This document shows positions 43,001-52,436 of a stretch of DNA of 64,000 nucleotides, in pieces. The translations under genes were made by a program, and so were the position numbers. The stretch covers positions 1 through 64,000 of the forward strand of contig CAJXCU010000003.1 of assembly GCA_913051935.1 (NCBI GenBank), written 5' to 3'. How positions within the stretch are numbered: the stretch's first letter is position 1; each line of letters starts with the position of its first letter. This DNA comes from an uncultured Flavobacteriales bacterium (GTDB taxonomy: Bacteria; Bacteroidota; Bacteroidia; Flavobacteriales_D; Crocinitomicaceae). The notes below the pieces were generated by a model, which was not told the DNA's origin, ran no database searches, and was given only the letters and a program-made list of their open reading frames with translations.

Positions 43001-43905
43001 TACCAAAAAATAGATCCAATCGCCAAAACAATAAGCGCCTTGTATATCTTATTGATTCGGTCAAATTGAGTTGGTGTTTTTGAGGCTCTTAAAATAAAAG
43101 TGGATATAAATATTGTTGCGAAACTAGCTCCAAAATAATAAGAGATATCTTGTGCCAAAATTTTGGGAAACAATACAATAATCATAATCATTGAAGCGAT
43201 CATAAAAGAAAGTATAATATACTTGCAGTTGCGAATCCCGAAAATGATGGGAATGCTTTTTTCGCCTACGATTAAATCTCCTTTCAAAGAAACCATTCTT
43301 TTAACCACCTCTCGTGTCACCGTTAAAGCAAAAATGTATCCAACGAATAAACCTATCGTGAGATTTGTGGTCATATAGTAAATACTAATACTGACAAAGG
43401 GAGAAACCGTAAGTAAAGTGGCGCCAAGCTCACCTGTCAAGGGTTTTTTACGAAGCTTATGTGAATAAAACCAGAGTCCGAAGGAAAAAACAACATTGAA
43501 AATAAAGACCTTCCAGCCTGAAAAAGAAGACAAGCCCAATCCCAATAACAAAAGAAAGACATAGCTATTAAAACAAAAGGATTTACTAACTACCCTACCA
43601 AAGATGGTTTGCTCCGGATGGTTAATCATGTCTTTTTCAAAGTCATAAAACCCGTTAATAATATACCCAGCCATAATCAAACAAGATATACCTAAAACAT
43701 TCATATGCAAGTAAATATCTTTTAATATATAAATATTTGATACACCTGAATTAAGCATGTAAATTGCACTCAAATAAAGTGCACATGTGAGCACGAAAAC
43801 ATTGTACCAACGGACCAATGAAAGCATGGCTAGTGCTTTGACTACAAAACGTTCTCTTTTAGAACTAAAAGAGGGCTTTTCTGTATTAAAATCTGTGGAT
43901 GACAT
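42997..43905 (-). CDS. ubiA: UbiA family prenyltransferase (geranylgeranylglycerol-phosphate geranylgeranyltransferase-like)
   Basis: The 302-residue inner-membrane enzyme has about eight helices and both Asp-rich motifs of the UbiA family: NGFYDFEKDMINHP (N-x3-D-x3-D) and LKGDLIVGEKSIPIIFG. It transfers a prenyl chain from its diphosphate to an acceptor. In Bacteroidota the gene at the end of the mevalonate cluster is commonly annotated as geranylgeranylglycerol-phosphate geranylgeranyltransferase; the acceptor here is not known, and quinone or ether-lipid substrates are both possible. It overlaps the mevalonate kinase gene by 20 bases and is the last gene of the operon. Confidence 0.87.
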   Translation of the reverse strand: MSSTDFNTEKPSFSSKRERFVVKALAMLSLVRWYNVFVLTCALYLSAIYMLNSGVSNIYILKDIYLHMNVLGISCLIMAGYIINGFYDFEKDMINHPEQTIFGRVVSKSFCFNSYVFLLLLGLGLSSFSGWKVFIFNVVFSFGLWFYSHKLRKKPLTGELGATLLTVSPFVSISIYYMTTNLTIGLFVGYIFALTVTREVVKRMVSLKGDLIVGEKSIPIIFGIRNCKYIILSFMIASMIMIIVLFPKILAQDISYYFGASFATIFISTFILRASKTPTQFDRINKIYKALIVLAIGSIFWY

Positions 43906-44824
43906 TTAATGGATACCCCTGAAGTTTAGACTTCGCTTTTTCAATGTCCTCAGTAAAACCAAGGATAAATCCACCACCACCCGAACCGCACAGCTTTAGG
44001 TAGTAGGCGTTAGAATCAATTCCCTCTTGCCATAGCTTATGGTACACTTTAGGAATCATGGGCTTGAAATGCTCCAAAAGAATTTTGGATAACCCTTTCA
44101 TGTTCGTCAAAAGTGGCTTTGATTTCTTGTTTAGGAAGGCATCGATGCACGCATCGTTGTATTTCTTAAATTGTCCTTTTAACATTTTTCGAAAACCTTC
44201 TTCTTTACAACGCTCCATAAAGTGTTGTACAAGCGGCTGTGTTTTTCCTGTAGTACCTGTATTCATCAAGAAAATCGCTCCTTTACCTGTCGAGGTATCT
44301 GGGAGACCAACTGTTCCTACTTCACTCTTTGATTTGATTAGTACAGGTAAATTTAAATAACAAATCAAAGGATCTAGACCAGAGCTTTTACCGTGATAGT
44401 ATGATTCTAGCGTTCCAAATATCTTTTTAAGCTCAATAAATTTCTCATTGCTCATATTGGCATCTGATGTAATTTTATCCACGCTATAATTATCATATAT
44501 TGCCGCAACAATTGCACCAGAGCTACCTACACCGAAACCTTGTGGAATACTCGAATCAAAGTGCATCCCTTTATCTAAATCTTTACGAAATTTATTCAAA
44601 TTCAAAGCACACGGTAGCTTACCCTTTGCTTCAAGGCCTTTCAAGTGTAAAAAGAATTTTTCTAACTTTCGATTGGAGTCTATTGAGTTTCCTTCCGGAT
44701 TAGTACTAAAGAGTAGCTTACCGTTATAATCATTATACGGAATAGATAGGCCCATTGAATCGTGGATGATTCCGTATTCTCCGAAAAGGAGAATTTTACT
44801 GTAGTACAAGGATTCTTTAAGCAT
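43886..44824 (-). CDS. mvk: Mevalonate kinase
   Basis: This GHMP kinase phosphorylates mevalonate with ATP. From ATG 44824 the product has 312 residues. Motif 1 is KILLFGEYGII (about 10-20), motif 2 is the phosphate loop PQGFGVGSSGAIVAAIYD, and motif 3 is LKLCGSGGGGFILGF. The YYHGKSSGLDPLICY segment holds the catalytic Asp region of mevalonate kinases. The nine extra residues from the upstream ATG at 44851 do not fit the family. It overlaps the decarboxylase gene by 8 bases. Confidence 0.92.
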   Translation of the reverse strand: MLKESLYYSKILLFGEYGIIHDSMGLSIPYNDYNGKLLFSTNPEGNSIDSNRKLEKFFLHLKGLEAKGKLPCALNLNKFRKDLDKGMHFDSSIPQGFGVGSSGAIVAAIYDNYSVDKITSDANMSNEKFIELKKIFGTLESYYHGKSSGLDPLICYLNLPVLIKSKSEVGTVGLPDTSTGKGAIFLMNTGTTGKTQPLVQHFMERCKEEGFRKMLKGQFKKYNDACIDAFLNKKSKPLLTNMKGLSKILLEHFKPMIPKVYHKLWQEGIDSNAYYLKLCGSGGGGFILGFTEDIEKAKSKLQGYPLNVIHRF

Positions 44825-45896
44825 AATGCTCCATTTTAAGTAGCGGCCCATTTCCTACTTCGTCACAAATATACTGCTCATTTTCACAGTAAGCAATTAA
44901 TTCATCCTTGATGAAGTCCAAGGCCGGCTGTTTATATTCAGCAGGATAAAGCAAATGAACATTTGCTCCTGCATCTAAAGTAATCGTAAAAGGTATGTTG
45001 TCTGAATCACGCTTTTCCCAAACCTTATGAATGATGTTCAAAGTATTAGGTTTGAAAAGCATAAAGTATGGATCAGAGGTCATCATCATCGCATGAAGCG
45101 TTAGCGCTTCCTTCTCTACTAACCGATTAAAGTCCAAAATGTTCCCAGATTTGAGGATTTTCTGTAACTTAAGCATATGATTCCTTGCTTGCTCAAAACG
45201 ATTTGCAGCAAAGGGATGATCATTCATGAGATCATGACCAAGGGTTGAGCTCACCTTCTTCTCGCCCCTGTCAACCAATAGTATGGTATCCTGATACGTT
45301 TTGAAAACATCGTGTACATCATCATAAGGAACCGCAAAGTCATTGCTACTTCCTGCGTAATCAGCATGCGCACCCCAAATACCCATCGGACCATATATAG
45401 AGCGGCATGCACTCCCCGACCCTAGCCGGCTTAAAAAAGAAGCCTTCTTGTAAAAGTCAGCATCAGAAAGGCTTGCTGCTTCGCGTTCAATACTCAAGAC
45501 GCATAACGCCAAGGCACTAAATCCTGAAGCTGAAGAGGCGATACCACTGCTGTGTGGAAAGGTATTTTCAGTTTCAATTTTGAATGCATAATGATTTACA
45601 TAAGGGCAATAGCTTTCTATACGCCCGAAGAAGGTCTCAATCTTTTTTAAGAAAGATGGTTGCTCCTGTCCACCAACGAAGACTTTAAGGCTGCGTTTGT
45701 CTGCTTTTGAAAAAGACAGCTTGGTTGAGGTGTAGCAATTCCTGAGAGTAAAGCTAATAGATGCGTTGGCAGGAAGTTGCACAGGTTTCTTTCCCCAATA
45801 CTTGACTAGCGCAATGTTTGAGGGACTTTCCCAAGTTACTGTGCCTGATTGAGGGACTGATAACATAGTACCCGCAGTATATTCATCTTGAATCAT
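44817..45896 (-). CDS. mvaD: Diphosphomevalonate decarboxylase
   Basis: MvaD makes isopentenyl diphosphate from mevalonate diphosphate, using ATP. The 359-residue product has the family start SPSNIALVKYWGKKPVQLPANASISFTL, the ATP loop HSSGIASSASGFSALALCVLSIE, RLGSGSACRSIYGPMGIWG, and the catalytic Asp in FTITLDAGANVHLLY. All expected motifs are intact and the length is normal for Bacteroidota. It lies 81 bases after the GYDIA kinase gene and overlaps mevalonate kinase by 8. Confidence 0.95.
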   Translation of the reverse strand: MIQDEYTAGTMLSVPQSGTVTWESPSNIALVKYWGKKPVQLPANASISFTLRNCYTSTKLSFSKADKRSLKVFVGGQEQPSFLKKIETFFGRIESYCPYVNHYAFKIETENTFPHSSGIASSASGFSALALCVLSIEREAASLSDADFYKKASFLSRLGSGSACRSIYGPMGIWGAHADYAGSSNDFAVPYDDVHDVFKTYQDTILLVDRGEKKVSSTLGHDLMNDHPFAANRFEQARNHMLKLQKILKSGNILDFNRLVEKEALTLHAMMMTSDPYFMLFKPNTLNIIHKVWEKRDSDNIPFTITLDAGANVHLLYPAEYKQPALDFIKDELIAYCENEQYICDEVGNGPLLKMEHYA

Positions 45897-45977
45897 CGCT
45901 TAAATGTAAGGTTTAAGAAAGGTGTGTAAAAAATGTTGCGAAATAATTATCAACAAGGTTTTCATGAAATCTTTGGG

Positions 45978-46883
45978 CTACAAAATGAAAGAGTCAAATT
46001 CGTGGATCACAGAGAACCCTTTTTCTGCAAAATACGCGCGGTCTTTGGCATTTCCTGTAGCTAGAATAAAATCCCCACCCCAGGCACCTAATGACTTAAC
46101 AGCACCTTTATAATCTGAGAAGTAGCGTTGCCTTACCGTTGGATAGCCCAAAACGCAACTCATTATTTCTTCGTGTTTGGTAATCGCCTCATTGAAAACA
46201 TCAAGCGACGTTGCATGCATCATTGTTCGGGTTAAAGCTGAAATTTCCTCTACAATTGTAGCCAAATCAATACTAGATTTTCTACCTTGGTATTTATTGA
46301 CCTCACTACTACTTTTTTGTTTGGCATTTAAATAAACGAAAAATAAAGATGAACAAAAGTCCGGTTTCCAATCTATTTGATTTACTTCCACTAGACCATC
46401 ATCCAATTGATAGGTGATCGCCGAGTCTGTCATTCCGCAAGCTACATCATAGCCACTTCCATTGCTCACCTTAAAATGCAATTGCATGGGGTCAATATCA
46501 AAACATTGTGCCACACAACACAGTAAAGTAGAACTCGAGCCAAGCCCCCAGTCAGTTGGAAACTCCAAAGCCGTTGTCACCTCACCCTTAAGTCTATTCA
46601 ACTTATTAGATAGCACTGCTGCAGCTAATAATATTTCTTTAAGTGTTTTCGCTTTGCGGTGATCAGAACTATCTTCAATAATCAATTCAGCACCGTGGAA
46701 ATGTGCCTCAAACCAAGTTTCACCCTTCATATCTAGACTTCGCCAATGCAGTATGTCTTGATCGAGTTCTTTGTAATGCATGACCTGCCCTATCTGGGTA
46801 GGAATCGCCAATGACAAACTGCCATCAAGAATGGTGTATTCACCACTTACTAAAAGCTTTCCGTTTGCCCGAAAGGTTTTCAC
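45978..46883 (-). CDS. GYDIA family GHMP kinase, candidate phosphomevalonate kinase
   Basis: This GHMP-fold kinase shows motif 1 (GKLLVSGEYTILDGSLSLAIPT), the loop LGSSSTLLCCVAQ, and GSGYDVACG, the variant of the GYDIA signature. A GTG start at 46883 is chosen: it overlaps the hmgR stop as GTGA, and V(M)KTFRANGKLLVSGEY then matches the usual family start. An ATG at 46931 would reach 52 bases into hmgR. The product has 301 residues. In the pathway the step without a gene here is phosphomevalonate kinase, so this protein is the likely enzyme; that is inference. Confidence 0.85.
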   Translation of the reverse strand: MKTFRANGKLLVSGEYTILDGSLSLAIPTQIGQVMHYKELDQDILHWRSLDMKGETWFEAHFHGAELIIEDSSDHRKAKTLKEILLAAAVLSNKLNRLKGEVTTALEFPTDWGLGSSSTLLCCVAQCFDIDPMQLHFKVSNGSGYDVACGMTDSAITYQLDDGLVEVNQIDWKPDFCSSLFFVYLNAKQKSSSEVNKYQGRKSSIDLATIVEEISALTRTMMHATSLDVFNEAITKHEEIMSCVLGYPTVRQRYFSDYKGAVKSLGAWGGDFILATGNAKDRAYFAEKGFSVIHEFDSFIL

Positions 46884-48229
46884 TTGTTTTGGTTTTGAAG
46901 CTCTTCTTGAGTTATGCCACGTAATGTGCAAAAATAATCTACCACGGCTTTATGAGAAACCACCTTGTCTGCAAAGTGGTCTTTTATGACTTTACGCTCG
47001 TCTGCTGTTCCACCCAATTGATTGATGATGTTCAGCAAATGCATCTTCATGTGTCCTTTTTGAATCCCTGTTGTTACCAAAGAGCGAACTGCGCCAAAAT
47101 TCTGCGCCAAGCCAACACAAGCAATGATTTTCATAAGCTGCGCTGCGTTCGGCTTACCAAGTAATTGGTGTGCAAACTTTACCATTGGATGCAATGCTGT
47201 TAAACCACCTATGGTTCCCAATGCCATCGGTACCTCAATCCAAAAACGAAAGTTTCCGTCTGTAATGTCAACATGTGTTAGGCTGCTGTAGCTACCATCC
47301 TTTGCCGCATAAGTATGTCCACAAGACTCAATGGCCCTGAAGTCATTTCCTGTGGCAATCACAACAGCATCTATACCGTTAAAGATTCCTTTATTGTGGG
47401 TTGTTGCTCTATATGGCTCAATTTTAGCCACATGAATGGCTTGCTCAAACTTTTTAGCAAACTCCGCAGGAGAGAGATCTGTTCCTTCCGTAAGGCTTTC
47501 AATTGGGCAAGATACTTCAGCACGAACCAAACATTCAGGTGTATAGTTACTTAAGATGCACATGATAACCATCAATTTTTTATCTGACTCAGGTAAATCG
47601 CTGTTTTCAAGTTCACTCTGTAATATTTTTGAGAACTCCTCCAATATACTGTTGATGAAGTTTGCCCCCATAGCTTCACATGTTTCGAACTTTGCCATGA
47701 GCTGATAATAATTTGGCTCATCATCTGTCTTGTTGACGAGCTGTATATCAAGGATTCCTCCTCCACGCTTGCGCATGTTTTCAGTAAGGTCATTAGTTTG
47801 TTCAATAAACTTATGCTTAATAGACTCAAAGAAATCTAGTAATATATCGTAATTCCCATACCACGCGAAATGAACGTGGCCCACTTTAGTTGTAGAAATT
47901 ACTTCGGCCTTAAATCCACCCCGGTTCATCCAAAATGTGGCATTCTTGGCAGCTGCAGCAACAACAGAGCTCTCTTCTATTGCCATTGGCACACAAAAAA
48001 TCTCATCGTTGATTAAAAAGTTCGGGGCAATACCAAAAGGAATATAAAAATTAGAGATTGTATTCTCAATAAATTCATCGTGAATCTTCTGCACCTTGGC
48101 ATCATTGTGCCAATAGCTTTTAAGGAGCCCAACACATTCTTCATCTCCATCCAGGTACTCATTGGCAATCCATTCAATTTTAGCCTCCTTAGAAAGCTTT
48201 GAAAATCCTTTTACTGATTTCTTAGTCAT
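46880..48229 (-). CDS. hmgR: Hydroxymethylglutaryl-CoA reductase, class II type
   Basis: HMG-CoA reductase makes mevalonate, the first committed compound of this isoprenoid route. The 449-residue product shows CEAMGANFINSILEEF (family DAMGAN motif), HNKGIFNGIDAVVIATGNDFRAIESCGHTYAAKDG, LGTIGGLTALHPMVKFAHQLLG and a His near the C-terminus. There is no membrane domain, which fits the class II bacterial form. It is the first gene of the mevalonate operon and has a good promoter. Cofactor choice (NADH or NADPH) is not decided. Confidence 0.95.
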   Translation of the reverse strand: MTKKSVKGFSKLSKEAKIEWIANEYLDGDEECVGLLKSYWHNDAKVQKIHDEFIENTISNFYIPFGIAPNFLINDEIFCVPMAIEESSVVAAAAKNATFWMNRGGFKAEVISTTKVGHVHFAWYGNYDILLDFFESIKHKFIEQTNDLTENMRKRGGGILDIQLVNKTDDEPNYYQLMAKFETCEAMGANFINSILEEFSKILQSELENSDLPESDKKLMVIMCILSNYTPECLVRAEVSCPIESLTEGTDLSPAEFAKKFEQAIHVAKIEPYRATTHNKGIFNGIDAVVIATGNDFRAIESCGHTYAAKDGSYSSLTHVDITDGNFRFWIEVPMALGTIGGLTALHPMVKFAHQLLGKPNAAQLMKIIACVGLAQNFGAVRSLVTTGIQKGHMKMHLLNIINQLGGTADERKVIKDHFADKVVSHKAVVDYFCTLRGITQEELQNQNK

Positions 48230-48373: not shown

Positions 48374-49198
48374 ATGAAAAGAAAGACAATCAATCTTGAA
48401 AAATTCCTTGAACTTTATACGCCCTTTTCAGAAATAGGCGGATGGTGCACTGAAAAACACGAGCGCAAGCACAATCTTTATGACTATTTCAGGAAGATTG
48501 ATTCTATCTCAATTCAATCAAAGAAAGATGGATTGGCTCGGTTAATCAATGGAAATAATTCTTTTACTGTTTTCAAAGTCCCACGCCTGCAACGTGGAAA
48601 AATTTTTGGTTTACGAGGAAAGTGGTTACTGATGTGCGGAGTTGGCGGATTCAGAGGTGGTAGATGTCTTGAGATATTTAAACTAAGAAGCAAACCTTCT
48701 GATGAATTATTTGATAAAATGAGTCGTCTTTATGGTTATTGTCCAAATGCTAATTTTTATGAAGAACAGGAAAATCTCTATGAGCAGAAGGAAATAGAGC
48801 GTTCGAGAAAAAACGAAAACAGACCTAGAGTATATATTCTTGCTTTCATTAGTCAATATACACCTATAAAAGCGACTTGCAAGGAATGTAACTTAGAAAC
48901 AACATTTTCAGGATATTGGTCATACAGGACAAAAGAAAGACACCATAATGTTGATCAATACCAATGTCAAAACTGTGGAGAATTGTCCTTTTCTGAAGAA
49001 GAACAGAACGGTATTTCAGTAGCATGTATTCAACCCTGTAAATGTGGTGGTCAACGCAGACGAGACAAGAATATCTTTTGCCCAGGTTGCGGCTACCGTA
49101 AACGAAAAAACAATAGAGCAGAATCCTTTACAACGATATCCCAAGTGGAATTAGATATTCTTAAAACGAAGCATGACTCAATACTTGAGAATGATTGA
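48374..49198 (+). CDS. Zinc-ribbon protein of unknown function
   Basis: I do not recognise this gene. The 274-residue soluble protein has a basic N-terminal part with a Gly-rich stretch (FGLRGKWLLMCGVGGFRGGRCLEIFKL, 78-104). Two probable zinc sites follow: C169-x2-C172 with C198-x2-C201, and C222-x-C224 with C236-x2-C239. Such double ribbons often bind DNA, RNA or other proteins. Its many Lys and Arg residues fit nucleic-acid binding. It stands alone, opposite hmgR, with an inverted repeat before it and the first 178-bp repeat after it, in a block that looks like accessory DNA. Confidence 0.75.
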   Translation: MKRKTINLEKFLELYTPFSEIGGWCTEKHERKHNLYDYFRKIDSISIQSKKDGLARLINGNNSFTVFKVPRLQRGKIFGLRGKWLLMCGVGGFRGGRCLEIFKLRSKPSDELFDKMSRLYGYCPNANFYEEQENLYEQKEIERSRKNENRPRVYILAFISQYTPIKATCKECNLETTFSGYWSYRTKERHHNVDQYQCQNCGELSFSEEEQNGISVACIQPCKCGGQRRRDKNIFCPGCGYRKRKNNRAESFTTISQVELDILKTKHDSILEND

Positions 49199-49277
49199 GA
49201 ACTGAGTTATTCAATAGTTTATGTGATCATAAAAATTCCAATTTCTACTTATCAATATGTAATTTTTTTTACAATTT

Positions 49278-49455
49278 TTGCGTTAGCAATATAGAATATC
49301 ATTAAGAGTTCCGTGAAAGTCACGGATGCCAACCGATCCTTCGCAGGGCACGGTGGAAAAAACGATGAGAGGCTCGCACCTAAAAACAAACAGCGAATCC
49401 CATTTATATTTCTCTTGATGATGAATTGTTTAACCTTTTAAAACATTTTATTTTG
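49278..49455 (+). repeat. 178-bp direct repeat, copy 1 (structured leader-like element)
   Basis: This block is repeated at 50210-50387 with three differences (49288, 49290, 49449), giving 175 of 178 identical bases and 158 identical in a row. It is GC-richer than its surroundings. The RNA would fold as TCCGTGA-AAG-TCACGGA (49310-49326), a second hairpin with arms CC(A)ACCG and CGGTGG around an inner TCCT/AGGG stem (49329-49356), and a short GAG/CTC hairpin (49367-49375). The copy ends at a TTG that is the likely start codon of the next gene. No RNA family could be assigned. Confidence 0.9.
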
Positions 49456-50205
49456 AATAAACTAATATTACATATACCACACGCTTCAAAATACATACCT
49501 GATTTGAACCTTTACATTGCCGACCAAAAAACATTAAAACACGAGGTGCTTAAATTAACGGATTGGCATACCGATGATTTGTTCTTATTTGAAGATGCCC
49601 TCACTGTAAAAGCAAACTTTTCTCGGGTCTTTTGTGATGTTGAACGATTCTCTGAAGACTCACAAGAGGTGATGGCGAAATTTGGCATGGGCGTTTTATA
49701 TGAAAAAAGTGATGAAGGCCTAAGCATAAGAAATATAAACCCAGTGATTCGAGAAGCGATACTACAGAACTATTATTGGCCACATCACGAGAAGCTTAAT
49801 CAGGCTATAGATCAGCAGTTGAAAAAAAACGGCAAGGCAACTATTGTAGATTGCCATTCTTTTCCTAACAAGCCATTTCAGAGAGATCTTGATCAGAACC
49901 CAAATAGACCTGATTTTAATATTGGAACAGACTCCTTTCACACGCCTCTAGAACTTATTTCATTATCCGAGACCTTCTTTAATGAAAGAGGTTATTCAGT
50001 TGGAATCGATTGGCCTTACAAAGGCACCATTGTACCTCTAGTTCATTATAAAAAAAACAAAAATGTTCGATCAATTATGCTCGAGGTAAATCGATCTTTA
50101 TACCTTGATAAAAACACGAATTTACGGTCTATTTTATATCCAAAAACAAAAGATATTATTCAAGAATATTTGAGATTACTAAAAGAAAATTGTAATCTTT
50201 TATAA
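49453..50205 (+). CDS. N-formylglutamate amidohydrolase family protein
   Basis: The 250-residue product reads MNKLILHIPHASKYIP if started at TTG 49453, the usual family start. Other motifs are LTDWHTDDLFLFEDALTVKANFSRVFCDVERFSED, TIVDCHSFPNKPF (metal and catalytic residues) and SIMLEVNRSLYLD. The family includes N-formylglutamate deformylase of histidine breakdown, but many members have other amide substrates. A TTG at 49426 in frame would add nine residues from the repeat. No ATG is available near the start. The first bases of the gene are the last of repeat copy 1. The CtlX-type gene downstream suggests amino-acid catabolism. Confidence 0.87.
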   Translation: MNKLILHIPHASKYIPDLNLYIADQKTLKHEVLKLTDWHTDDLFLFEDALTVKANFSRVFCDVERFSEDSQEVMAKFGMGVLYEKSDEGLSIRNINPVIREAILQNYYWPHHEKLNQAIDQQLKKNGKATIVDCHSFPNKPFQRDLDQNPNRPDFNIGTDSFHTPLELISLSETFFNERGYSVGIDWPYKGTIVPLVHYKKNKNVRSIMLEVNRSLYLDKNTNLRSILYPKTKDIIQEYLRLLKENCNLL

Positions 50206-50209
50206 CTTC

Positions 50210-50387
50210 TTGCGTTAGCCAAATAGAATATCATTAAGAGTTCCGTGAAAGTCACGGATGCCAACCGATCCTTCGCAGGGCACGGTGGAAAAAACGATGA
50301 GAGGCTCGCACCTAAAAACAAACAGCGAATCCCATTTATATTTCTCTTGATGATGAATTGTTTAACCTTTTAAAACATTTCATTTTG
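50210..50387 (+). repeat. 178-bp direct repeat, copy 2 (structured leader-like element)
   Basis: This is the partner of 49278-49455, exactly 932 bases downstream in the same orientation. It starts four bases after the amidohydrolase stop codon and ends at TTG 50385-50387, the likely start of the next gene. The three hairpins of copy 1 are unchanged. Beyond both ends the two copies share no sequence, so the edges are sharp. Confidence 0.9.
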
Positions 50388-51083
50388 GAAAATCAATTTA
50401 AAGAACGCTTCAGAAAGCTTAATCCCTTGGAGCTCGTTGCCACTTTTAACAAAAACCTAAATCGAAGTTGGGACATCGATGAACGACGTCAATTTCTCGA
50501 AACGTTGCGCAAAGAATTTGAAAAACGGAATATCTGCATCGAAAACATTACGTCTCCCTTTGCCATTCGATCTAATGGATTTATTATGAACAAGCAATCC
50601 GAAGCGGTGTATGTAGCCAAAAAAGTAATTCCTAAAAAAGACCTCACTCGCCAAATACCGATAACCCTACTACTGGATTCTGAATACGAACAGCACGAAT
50701 GCGTGTATCTCAATCCCAAATTGGTTCTTATTGATGAACCGATTATCGATATGAGAAAATACCTTGAGCATGGCTGTTCCCCTATTCTATTTGCCGTTCA
50801 ACATGACAAGGTACAAACGGTATTTAATGTAACAGGGATCAGGGACATGTACCTCATTGGTTTCAAATTCAGCAACCAAATCAAGTCTGTGAATTTAATT
50901 AATGGAAGAAAGGAACATGTGCTTCAGCTCGCAATTCCAAGCAAAACACTGCTCTTTTTACCTCAAAAGCTCATTCTTGAGTTCAACACCTTTTTACTTG
51001 CCAAAAGACAAAGCATCGAAAAGTTCTTAAACGACATTCACAGCATTCAATTATTACCCACTTATAAAACCCCAAAATCATGA
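50385..51083 (+). CDS. Protein of unknown function downstream of repeat copy 2
   Basis: I do not recognise this gene. Started at TTG 50385 the product has 232 residues, soluble, mixed helix and strand: MENQFKERFRKLNPLELVATFNKNLNRSWDIDERRQFLETLRKEFEKRN, then SPFAIRSNGFIMNKQSEAVYVAKKVI and VYLNPKLVLIDEPIIDMRKYLEHGCSPILFAVQHDKV. There is no signal peptide or known catalytic motif. The in-frame TTG at 50358 lies within the repeat and would add nine residues identical to those before the amidohydrolase. It overlaps the next gene by 4 bases (ATGA). Confidence 0.68.
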   Translation: MENQFKERFRKLNPLELVATFNKNLNRSWDIDERRQFLETLRKEFEKRNICIENITSPFAIRSNGFIMNKQSEAVYVAKKVIPKKDLTRQIPITLLLDSEYEQHECVYLNPKLVLIDEPIIDMRKYLEHGCSPILFAVQHDKVQTVFNVTGIRDMYLIGFKFSNQIKSVNLINGRKEHVLQLAIPSKTLLFLPQKLILEFNTFLLAKRQSIEKFLNDIHSIQLLPTYKTPKS

Positions 51084-52150
51084 AAAACTTGAGAAAAATC
51101 AATCTTAGCATTAGCTGTTTCTTACTATTAATCACTTACAGTATCTCTCAAAATGAAATCGATCCTGACAATACGCTCGAAGAAAAGACCCACTTCACCA
51201 TACTTGAAAAAGAAGGTAAGACTCAATATTTCGGACAAGTCTATAAAAATAAGAGAAAAGGAATAGGTACCGAATTTTTGAACAATGGCCAAACGCAAAC
51301 AGGCTATTTCGAAAACGACCAATTCCTTGGTGAATATATTGTCAGTCCACCGTGGCATATGGTTGATATTGATTACAACTTCATCAATGACGTTGAATTT
51401 GAAAAAATATCTGTAGATGTCAACATCAAAAACAAGATATCTAAAGACGAATTCCTTTACATTTCACCATTGTGTAGCGAAATCAACGGTATTCAATTTT
51501 ATGCAGGAATACAGACTCAGTGTGGTGGTTATCAAAACTCCTTACACAACGAGGAAAAATCTGAGTATTATGAAATCGGTAAGGCCCTTATCTTTTCAAG
51601 GTGGGAAACAAGAGACATCAAAGGATTTCAAAAGGCGCCCAATGGGGTATGCGAAAGCAGTGGGTATGAAGGTGATTTTATCAGTGTTCGTAACTCCTTT
51701 GAATGGGATACTGGCACCTATACATTAAGCCTAATAAATACACACGAAACCATACAACTGAATGGAGAATTACACACTTTCGTTGAGCTACAGGCCTATG
51801 ATCACCAGAATGATAAAACAGTGAGCTGTGGCAAACTTGCATTTCCCGGGGAGCGCCTTGTTTTAGATAAGAGAAACTTTATGTTCGTTGAGTTATATAG
51901 TGAATTAACAAAAATTTCGGATACCCCAAAAGGCACGGTGAGCATGGGTAATTTCAACTACCAAGCACCAGGTAAAGGAGCTTCCTCCAGAGTATTAATT
52001 GAAGAGGCTTTTGCCCTCTATAATAAAAATAAACCTCAATGGGCAAGGGCAAGTCTGGAAAACCAGCTGTTTAAGTTTCAATTTGGTCTACCTTATGCGA
52101 GAAGATATCATTGGGAGTACGAAAATCTATATGTCGAAACTTTAAAATAA
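51080..52150 (+). CDS. Secreted MORN-like repeat protein of unknown function
   Basis: The 356-residue product has a signal peptide (KNLRKINLSISCFLLLITYSISQ). Residues about 50-85 hold two MORN-like units (YFGQVYKNKRKGIGTEFLNNGQTQTGYFENDQFLGEY), a motif found in proteins that touch membranes or act as scaffolds. The rest is unrecognised, with several Cys (CSEINGIQFYAGIQTQCGGYQNS, CESSGYEG) and a C-terminal GKGASSRVLIEEAFALYNKNKPQWARASL. There is no T9SS tail. It overlaps the upstream orphan by 4 bases, so the two are co-translated. Confidence 0.72.
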   Translation: MKNLRKINLSISCFLLLITYSISQNEIDPDNTLEEKTHFTILEKEGKTQYFGQVYKNKRKGIGTEFLNNGQTQTGYFENDQFLGEYIVSPPWHMVDIDYNFINDVEFEKISVDVNIKNKISKDEFLYISPLCSEINGIQFYAGIQTQCGGYQNSLHNEEKSEYYEIGKALIFSRWETRDIKGFQKAPNGVCESSGYEGDFISVRNSFEWDTGTYTLSLINTHETIQLNGELHTFVELQAYDHQNDKTVSCGKLAFPGERLVLDKRNFMFVELYSELTKISDTPKGTVSMGNFNYQAPGKGASSRVLIEEAFALYNKNKPQWARASLENQLFKFQFGLPYARRYHWEYENLYVETLK

Positions 52151-52154
52151 GACC

Positions 52155-52436
52155 ATGAACTGGAAAACACATTACCAACAAATCAAGAAGAACTTCAAGC
52201 AATCTAAGAAAATTCAAGAAGGGCTTTGCTTAACCCCTTCTAGAGCTACTCTCGAACAAATCATACAGCGCCACGTAGAGTGGCGATTTCCTGGTACTAA
52301 AAGTAATGGACAAAGAGAAGCCTCAGAATGGGACTTGATTTACTTTAAGAGAGAACCGATGTGCAACATTGTTTGGGCCGAATGTTTGCTTATGGATGAA
52401 TTTCACTTTCGCGTAATGATTCGTTTGATTGGATAA
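52155..52436 (+). CDS. Small protein of unknown function
   Basis: I do not recognise this 93-residue protein. It is basic at the start (MNWKTHYQQIKKNFKQSKKIQEGLCLTPSRATLEQIIQRHVEWRFPG) and more mixed at the end (EWDLIYFKREPMCNIVWAECLLMDEFHFRVMIRLIG). It has no signal peptide or membrane helix. It begins four bases after the MORN-like gene and ends 27 bases before the CtlX-type gene, so it is probably part of the same transcript. Codon use and spacing support a real gene. Confidence 0.62.
   Translation: MNWKTHYQQIKKNFKQSKKIQEGLCLTPSRATLEQIIQRHVEWRFPGTKSNGQREASEWDLIYFKREPMCNIVWAECLLMDEFHFRVMIRLIG

Follow-up and report, generated by a model that had tools for sequence, protein, structure and literature searches.

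Paired SAM-I/IV riboswitch leaders, probably acting as translational OFF switches and apparently homogenised by gene conversion, in an uncultured Flavobacteriales bacterium

The window, by which we mean the whole stretch of 64,000 nucleotides analysed here, contains two near-identical blocks of 178 bp at positions 49278-49455 and 50210-50387. The copies are identical at all but 3 of 178 positions, and weaker similarity continues beyond them (49266-49460 versus 50198-50392, 95% over 195 nt). Each block is closed by a TTG, at 49453 and at 50385, which opens a reading frame; both the near identity and the terminal TTGs had been pointed out in a first-pass annotation of the sequence. A third copy of the 178-bp block was not found anywhere in the 2.36-Mb genome.

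The reading frame opened by the first block (49453..50205, plus strand, TTG start) encodes a member of the N-formylglutamate amidohydrolase (FGase) family (PF05013; 151 bits, E 5.9e-44). Against the model for HutG N-formylglutamate deformylase (TIGR02017) this protein scores 54 bits, far below the equivalog cut-off of 278.75, so it is assigned to the PF05013 family only, and a HutG role in histidine catabolism was rejected. The earlier suggestion that the leaders control an amino-acid catabolism set is abandoned on the same grounds, and also because the neighboring genes belong to unnamed families. A second, stronger FGase-family gene is present elsewhere in the genome (G000:C10:4352-5014), away from any SAM-I/IV leader. 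Upstream of the first block lies an unnamed protein with zinc-ribbon-type cysteine pairs (48374-49198), located between the HMG-CoA reductase gene and the first leader and not seen at the equivalent place in the related genomes G017 or G026. The HMG-CoA reductase is part of a mevalonate-pathway-like cluster on the minus strand (43886-48229); related species have this cluster in syntenic position ahead of the leaders.

The second block opens an orphan gene (50385..51083, plus strand, TTG start), for which no Pfam, NCBIfam or PADLOC match was found; the original description of the two genes as an amidohydrolase-family gene and an orphan was sound. The C-terminal half of the orphan is a domain related to a family of 119-residue proteins, the MKKQVIVW family (MKKQVIVWLKNG...). 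The hhalign probability of this relationship is low (32%, E 0.0005), and the two are bridged by intermediates in G324 and G206 detected with BLAST. In two families of the order, genes for the 119-residue family also lie immediately downstream of SAM-I/IV leaders. Relatives of the orphan occur in 8 of 100 related genomes; all seven strong ones have a leader, and the weak one, in G003, is without a leader. A similarity of the C-terminal domain to DUF192, spotted by eye, was rejected (hhalign 0.1% versus one DUF192 protein; Pfam and PDB sequence searches negative), and the structure model of the orphan is too poor for use (pLDDT 41).

Two further genes on the plus strand probably belong to the same operon, and both recur in SAM-I/IV operons. 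The first (51080..52150) encodes a MORN-like, DUF3472-like protein with a signal peptide, modeled with a pLDDT of 84.8. Its best Foldseek match among solved structures (8pn3, E 8e-8, TM 0.47) is a protein crystallised with glycopeptides. The second (52155..52436) encodes a 93-aa protein of an unnamed family. An anti-phage defence role for the operon proteins was considered and rejected, there being no PADLOC match.

In order to identify structured RNAs, we scanned the window against all Rfam families at curated thresholds. Three matches were obtained, one tRNA and two SAM-I/IV riboswitch aptamers (RF01725), one in each block. The aptamers lie at 49294..49397 and 50226..50329 on the plus strand, and both match the model over its full length (1-99) with 44.4 bits, above the gathering score of 41.1. 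The first-pass annotation had offered a 5' regulatory RNA such as a riboswitch as one reading and had asked for an Rfam search; that reading is borne out, although it could match the blocks to no known riboswitch. The three hairpins that it saw unchanged in both copies are real; in the aptamer they are the P2, P3 and P5 hairpins.

The blocks resemble the SAM-I/IV riboswitch (Weinberg et al. 2010, PMC2864571) in having P1, P2, P3, P5 and a pseudoknot of the P3 loop, in their marine origin, and in scoring over the curated cut-off. In the RF01725 alignment P2 is without an internal loop and the P5 hairpin follows P1, as is expected of this class. The P3 loop (UUCGC, 49340..49344 in copy 1) can pair with GCGAA at 49393-49397, forming a PK-2-type pseudoknot. 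The SAM-I riboswitch (RF00162) has the SAM-binding core in common with the blocks, but it carries a kink-turn in P2, PK-1, and P4 where the blocks have P5/PK-2; a search with RF00162 at a limit of E 10 leaves the blocks unmatched. The SAM-IV riboswitch likewise has P5 and PK-2 after P1, whereas its PK-1 and split P2 (PMC6890682) were not found in the blocks. In SAM-I, the residues near SAM are 6-8, 11-12, 44-47, 57-59 and 87 (PMC6890682), and on a residue map drawn by hand from that work the blocks keep the same core motifs at the clan positions near SAM, so that the conserved SAM-binding core is present. Among 77 RF01725 leaders collected for comparison together with their neighboring genes, the core motifs CCAACCGA and GGTGG are kept in 76.

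Upstream of each aptamer we observed a promoter-like element resembling the ECF-sigma type. In copy 1 (49258..49285, plus strand) it consists of TGTAAT (49258-49263), 17 nt and CGTTA (49281-49285); in copy 2 (50191..50217, plus strand) TGTAAT (50191-50196) is followed after 16 nt by CGTTA (50213-50217), and the element overlaps the end of the FGase gene. GTAAY or GTACC is found upstream in 34 of 35 leaders of the genus, compared with a mean of 6.8 in shuffled sequences, and CGTTA often follows, which points to an ECF-sigma-type promoter. On its 5' side the repeat begins at the -10 part of this element, and therefore each gene seems to own both a promoter and a switch.

We propose that the two 178-bp blocks each serve as the leader of a single transcription unit. 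Such a leader would combine the promoter-like element, the SAM-I/IV aptamer, the start codon and, between the latter two, an expression platform. The 5' strand of P1 with J1/2 (AUCAUUAAGAG; 49298..49308 in copy 1, 50230..50240 in copy 2, plus strand) is common to P1 and to an alternative helix, whose other strand is the downstream element CUCUUGAUGAU (49412..49422 and 50344..50354, plus strand). These strands can form 11 base pairs, including one G-U pair. In the absence of SAM they would pair with each other, and the start-codon region would be freer (ON). On binding of SAM, P1 would form and set the downstream element free, and the end of that element (GAUGAA...) would then pair around the start codon and block translation (OFF). 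The corresponding start-codon hairpins, both on the plus strand, lie at 49420..49455 in copy 1, where the hairpin is weak (-4.9 kcal/mol) and shares bases with the alternative-helix partner, and at 50352..50387 in copy 2 (-8.4 kcal/mol). Copy 1 would govern the FGase-family enzyme, and copy 2 the orphan gene and probably its operon.

Comparison of leaders supports these pairings; base changes that preserve pairs, which the first-pass annotation had wanted to see, were found. In other subtypes the two strands covary (GUAUUUCG with CGAAAUAC, and GUAUUCCGAA with UUCGGAAUAC). We further compared, in an alignment-free manner, the duplex energy of strands within their own leader with that of strands from swapped leaders, using 20,000 permutations; as the leaders are related by descent, the permutation counts given here are not strict probabilities. 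For the alternative helix in 35 non-redundant leaders the mean energy was -9.55 kcal/mol within leaders and -6.33 kcal/mol between them (0/20000 permutations). For the pairing of the element's end with the start-codon region in 27 leaders the values were -7.25 and -4.41 (0/20000), and they changed little without one outlier and the starts of lowest certainty (-6.97 versus -4.25, 0/20000). The P3-loop pseudoknot behaved in the same manner in 34 leaders, own loop and tail pairing better than swapped ones (0/20000), while being weak in several of them.

Folding calculations agree in part. The whole leader is more stable than shuffled sequences (z = -2.5), and the minimum-energy fold of the free, unliganded leader is the one with the alternative helix. 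In whole-leader folding the gain in accessibility of the start region is small (0.32 to 0.39 in copy 1, 0.24 to 0.34 in copy 2). When the alternative helix is formed, the start codon as such is paired more, its partner being the leader's 5' end. Because of this small change and the poor start hairpin of copy 1, the model rests on comparison and not on thermodynamics. The alternative helix is absent from some leaders of the order, including metK leaders in G371 and G256. A literature search confined largely to work outside subscription journals found no prior description of a start-codon platform for SAM-I/IV, and such a platform may already be described in the SAM-I/IV crystal-structure paper.

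The riboswitch could instead act on transcription, by termination or through Rho, and not on the start codon. The majority of SAM-I riboswitches elsewhere do so, and the weak start hairpin of copy 1 would be in keeping with it. However, no intrinsic terminator or terminator-like site was found in 49200-50450, and across the family the start codon pairs better within leaders than between them; we consider transcriptional action rather unlikely. The comparison of leaders thus favors translational control with OFF polarity.

Of 100 close relatives, 23 have an RF01725 match above the cut-off; a sample of 399 genomes from the order gave such matches in 70. Many SAM-I/IV leaders in G322, G371, G382, G396 and G401 are located near contig ends, a placement to be expected where short-read assemblies are broken by several near-identical copies. 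The genes downstream of the leaders fall into three groups. The first is metK, encoding SAM synthetase, which is found behind leaders in some genomes and speaks for SAM being what the class binds. The second is the FGase gene, present behind leaders in G000 (the genome of the window), G017, G027, G033, G197, G316, G348 and G354, which span at least four genera of the family; the block thus does recur before related genes, as the first-pass annotation had suggested checking. In G348, which belongs to a different genus, the order leader-FGase-leader is seen again, with the leaders 1048 bp apart. The third group comprises families unnamed in Pfam or NCBIfam, to which the orphan of the window belongs.

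This gene content raises the possibility that the aptamer is SAM-I/IV-like with a changed ligand, for example another adenosyl compound, and serves a pathway unrelated to SAM. In the genus of the window the downstream genes are FGase and unnamed families and not genes of sulfur metabolism, and ligand changes are known in other riboswitch classes. The methionine synthase gene (metH) of the same genome is preceded by a canonical SAM-I riboswitch (G000:C14:37874-37975, 89.6 bits), the only RF00162 match in the genome at a limit of E 10, so SAM-I/IV sensing is not used there for the obvious gene. On the other hand, the positions near SAM keep the core motifs, and these are common to the metK-associated leaders; a changed ligand therefore appears improbable, and SAM is the likely ligand in this organism, judging from the conserved core. 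The metH gene itself, named from its sequence, consists of two open reading frames of 326 and 891 aa, and SAM-I stands before a two-frame metH in the relatives G006 and G052 as well.

The history of the leader pair can be traced in related genomes. G017, G027 and G033 have the order leader-FGase-leader-orphan with the leaders about 931 bp apart, and the paired copies in them are separated by 22, 23 and 11 differences, respectively, versus 3 in the window. The occurrence of the same order with diverged copies in these three other assemblies, one of them in 7 contigs, led us to reject an assembly artefact. G017 and G027 have copy-1-specific states in common, and hence the duplication predates these species; the two copies were, on this evidence, already adjacent in an ancestor common to at least four species. 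Both copies of the window carry a base insertion (49363) that no other leader has. The orphan starts with TTG in the window only, other orphan genes having ATG, and TTG is typical of FGase leaders. We infer that the near identity in the window results from gene conversion that extended into the start codon of the orphan. Of the two explanations first offered, recent duplication or gene conversion, the second agrees with the number of differences, the insertion and the TTG, while the first fails because the arrangement predates the species. The copies in G033 appear to have undergone a milder homogenisation.

In G026 the FGase gene is absent, and a single leader combines the upstream flank of the first leader of G017 with the body of a second leader. 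This is what recombination between two leaders would leave, although the single leader may also be the ancestral state. The leaders seem to serve as homology for gain and loss of the FGase gene; this much holds of the first-pass annotation's description of them as exchangeable, which otherwise does not follow. Its other proposal, a small mobile element or insertion cassette with its own leader, recently duplicated, could draw on the near identity, the sharp edges and the presence or absence of FGase between leaders, but it is highly improbable. The genome holds just two copies; phage records gave no match, and a core pattern had no exact counterpart in viral contigs; three other species have diverged orthologous copies in the same doubled order; and the edges coincide with functional ends (the start codon at the 3' side, the promoter-like element conserved between species at the 5' side) and not with target-site duplications. 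We regard as quite probable the account in which an old pair of SAM-I/IV leaders, acting as translational OFF switches, was homogenised by gene conversion.

The SAM-I/IV class was already known, and the new part is the unnamed genes under its control. Compared with the described riboswitch, the locus has two near-identical leaders in tandem with one gene each, FGase and unnamed families downstream instead of SAM synthesis, and a start-codon expression platform proposed from covariation. As far as checked, the recurrent FGase, the unnamed families behind the class, the covariation-supported platform and the conversion between leaders are new. A riboswitch in front of uncharacterised families and FGase in marine bacteria makes low SAM a testable cue to their function. 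The platform offers a concrete, covariation-supported model for translational control by such a switch in Bacteroidota, in which Shine-Dalgarno sites are often lacking, and the leader pair is a clear case of apparent gene conversion between riboswitch leaders reaching a start codon. More broadly, and only tentatively, SAM-I/IV might in these marine Flavobacteriales have become the shared switch of a low-SAM response whose gene set varies: unnamed small and secreted proteins (the orphan/MKKQVIVW family, the FPYV family, MORN/DUF3472-like proteins, families of 90-130 aa) and FGase. The leaders would provide the homology for gene gain, loss and conversion.

Other arrangements of SAM-I/IV leaders were observed in the order. 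A 6.3 kb contig of a genome assigned to another family (G091:C76) carries a near-identical leader and orphan beside a homologue of the window's 48374-49198 gene, which reflects either a transfer or a mis-binned contig. In G048:C10, G049:C9 and G155:C15, a single short intergenic region holds back-to-back leaders for two divergent genes. Finally, two SAM-I/IV aptamers that are 54% identical follow each other before one gene (G324:C41:15692 and 15977), possibly constituting a tandem riboswitch.
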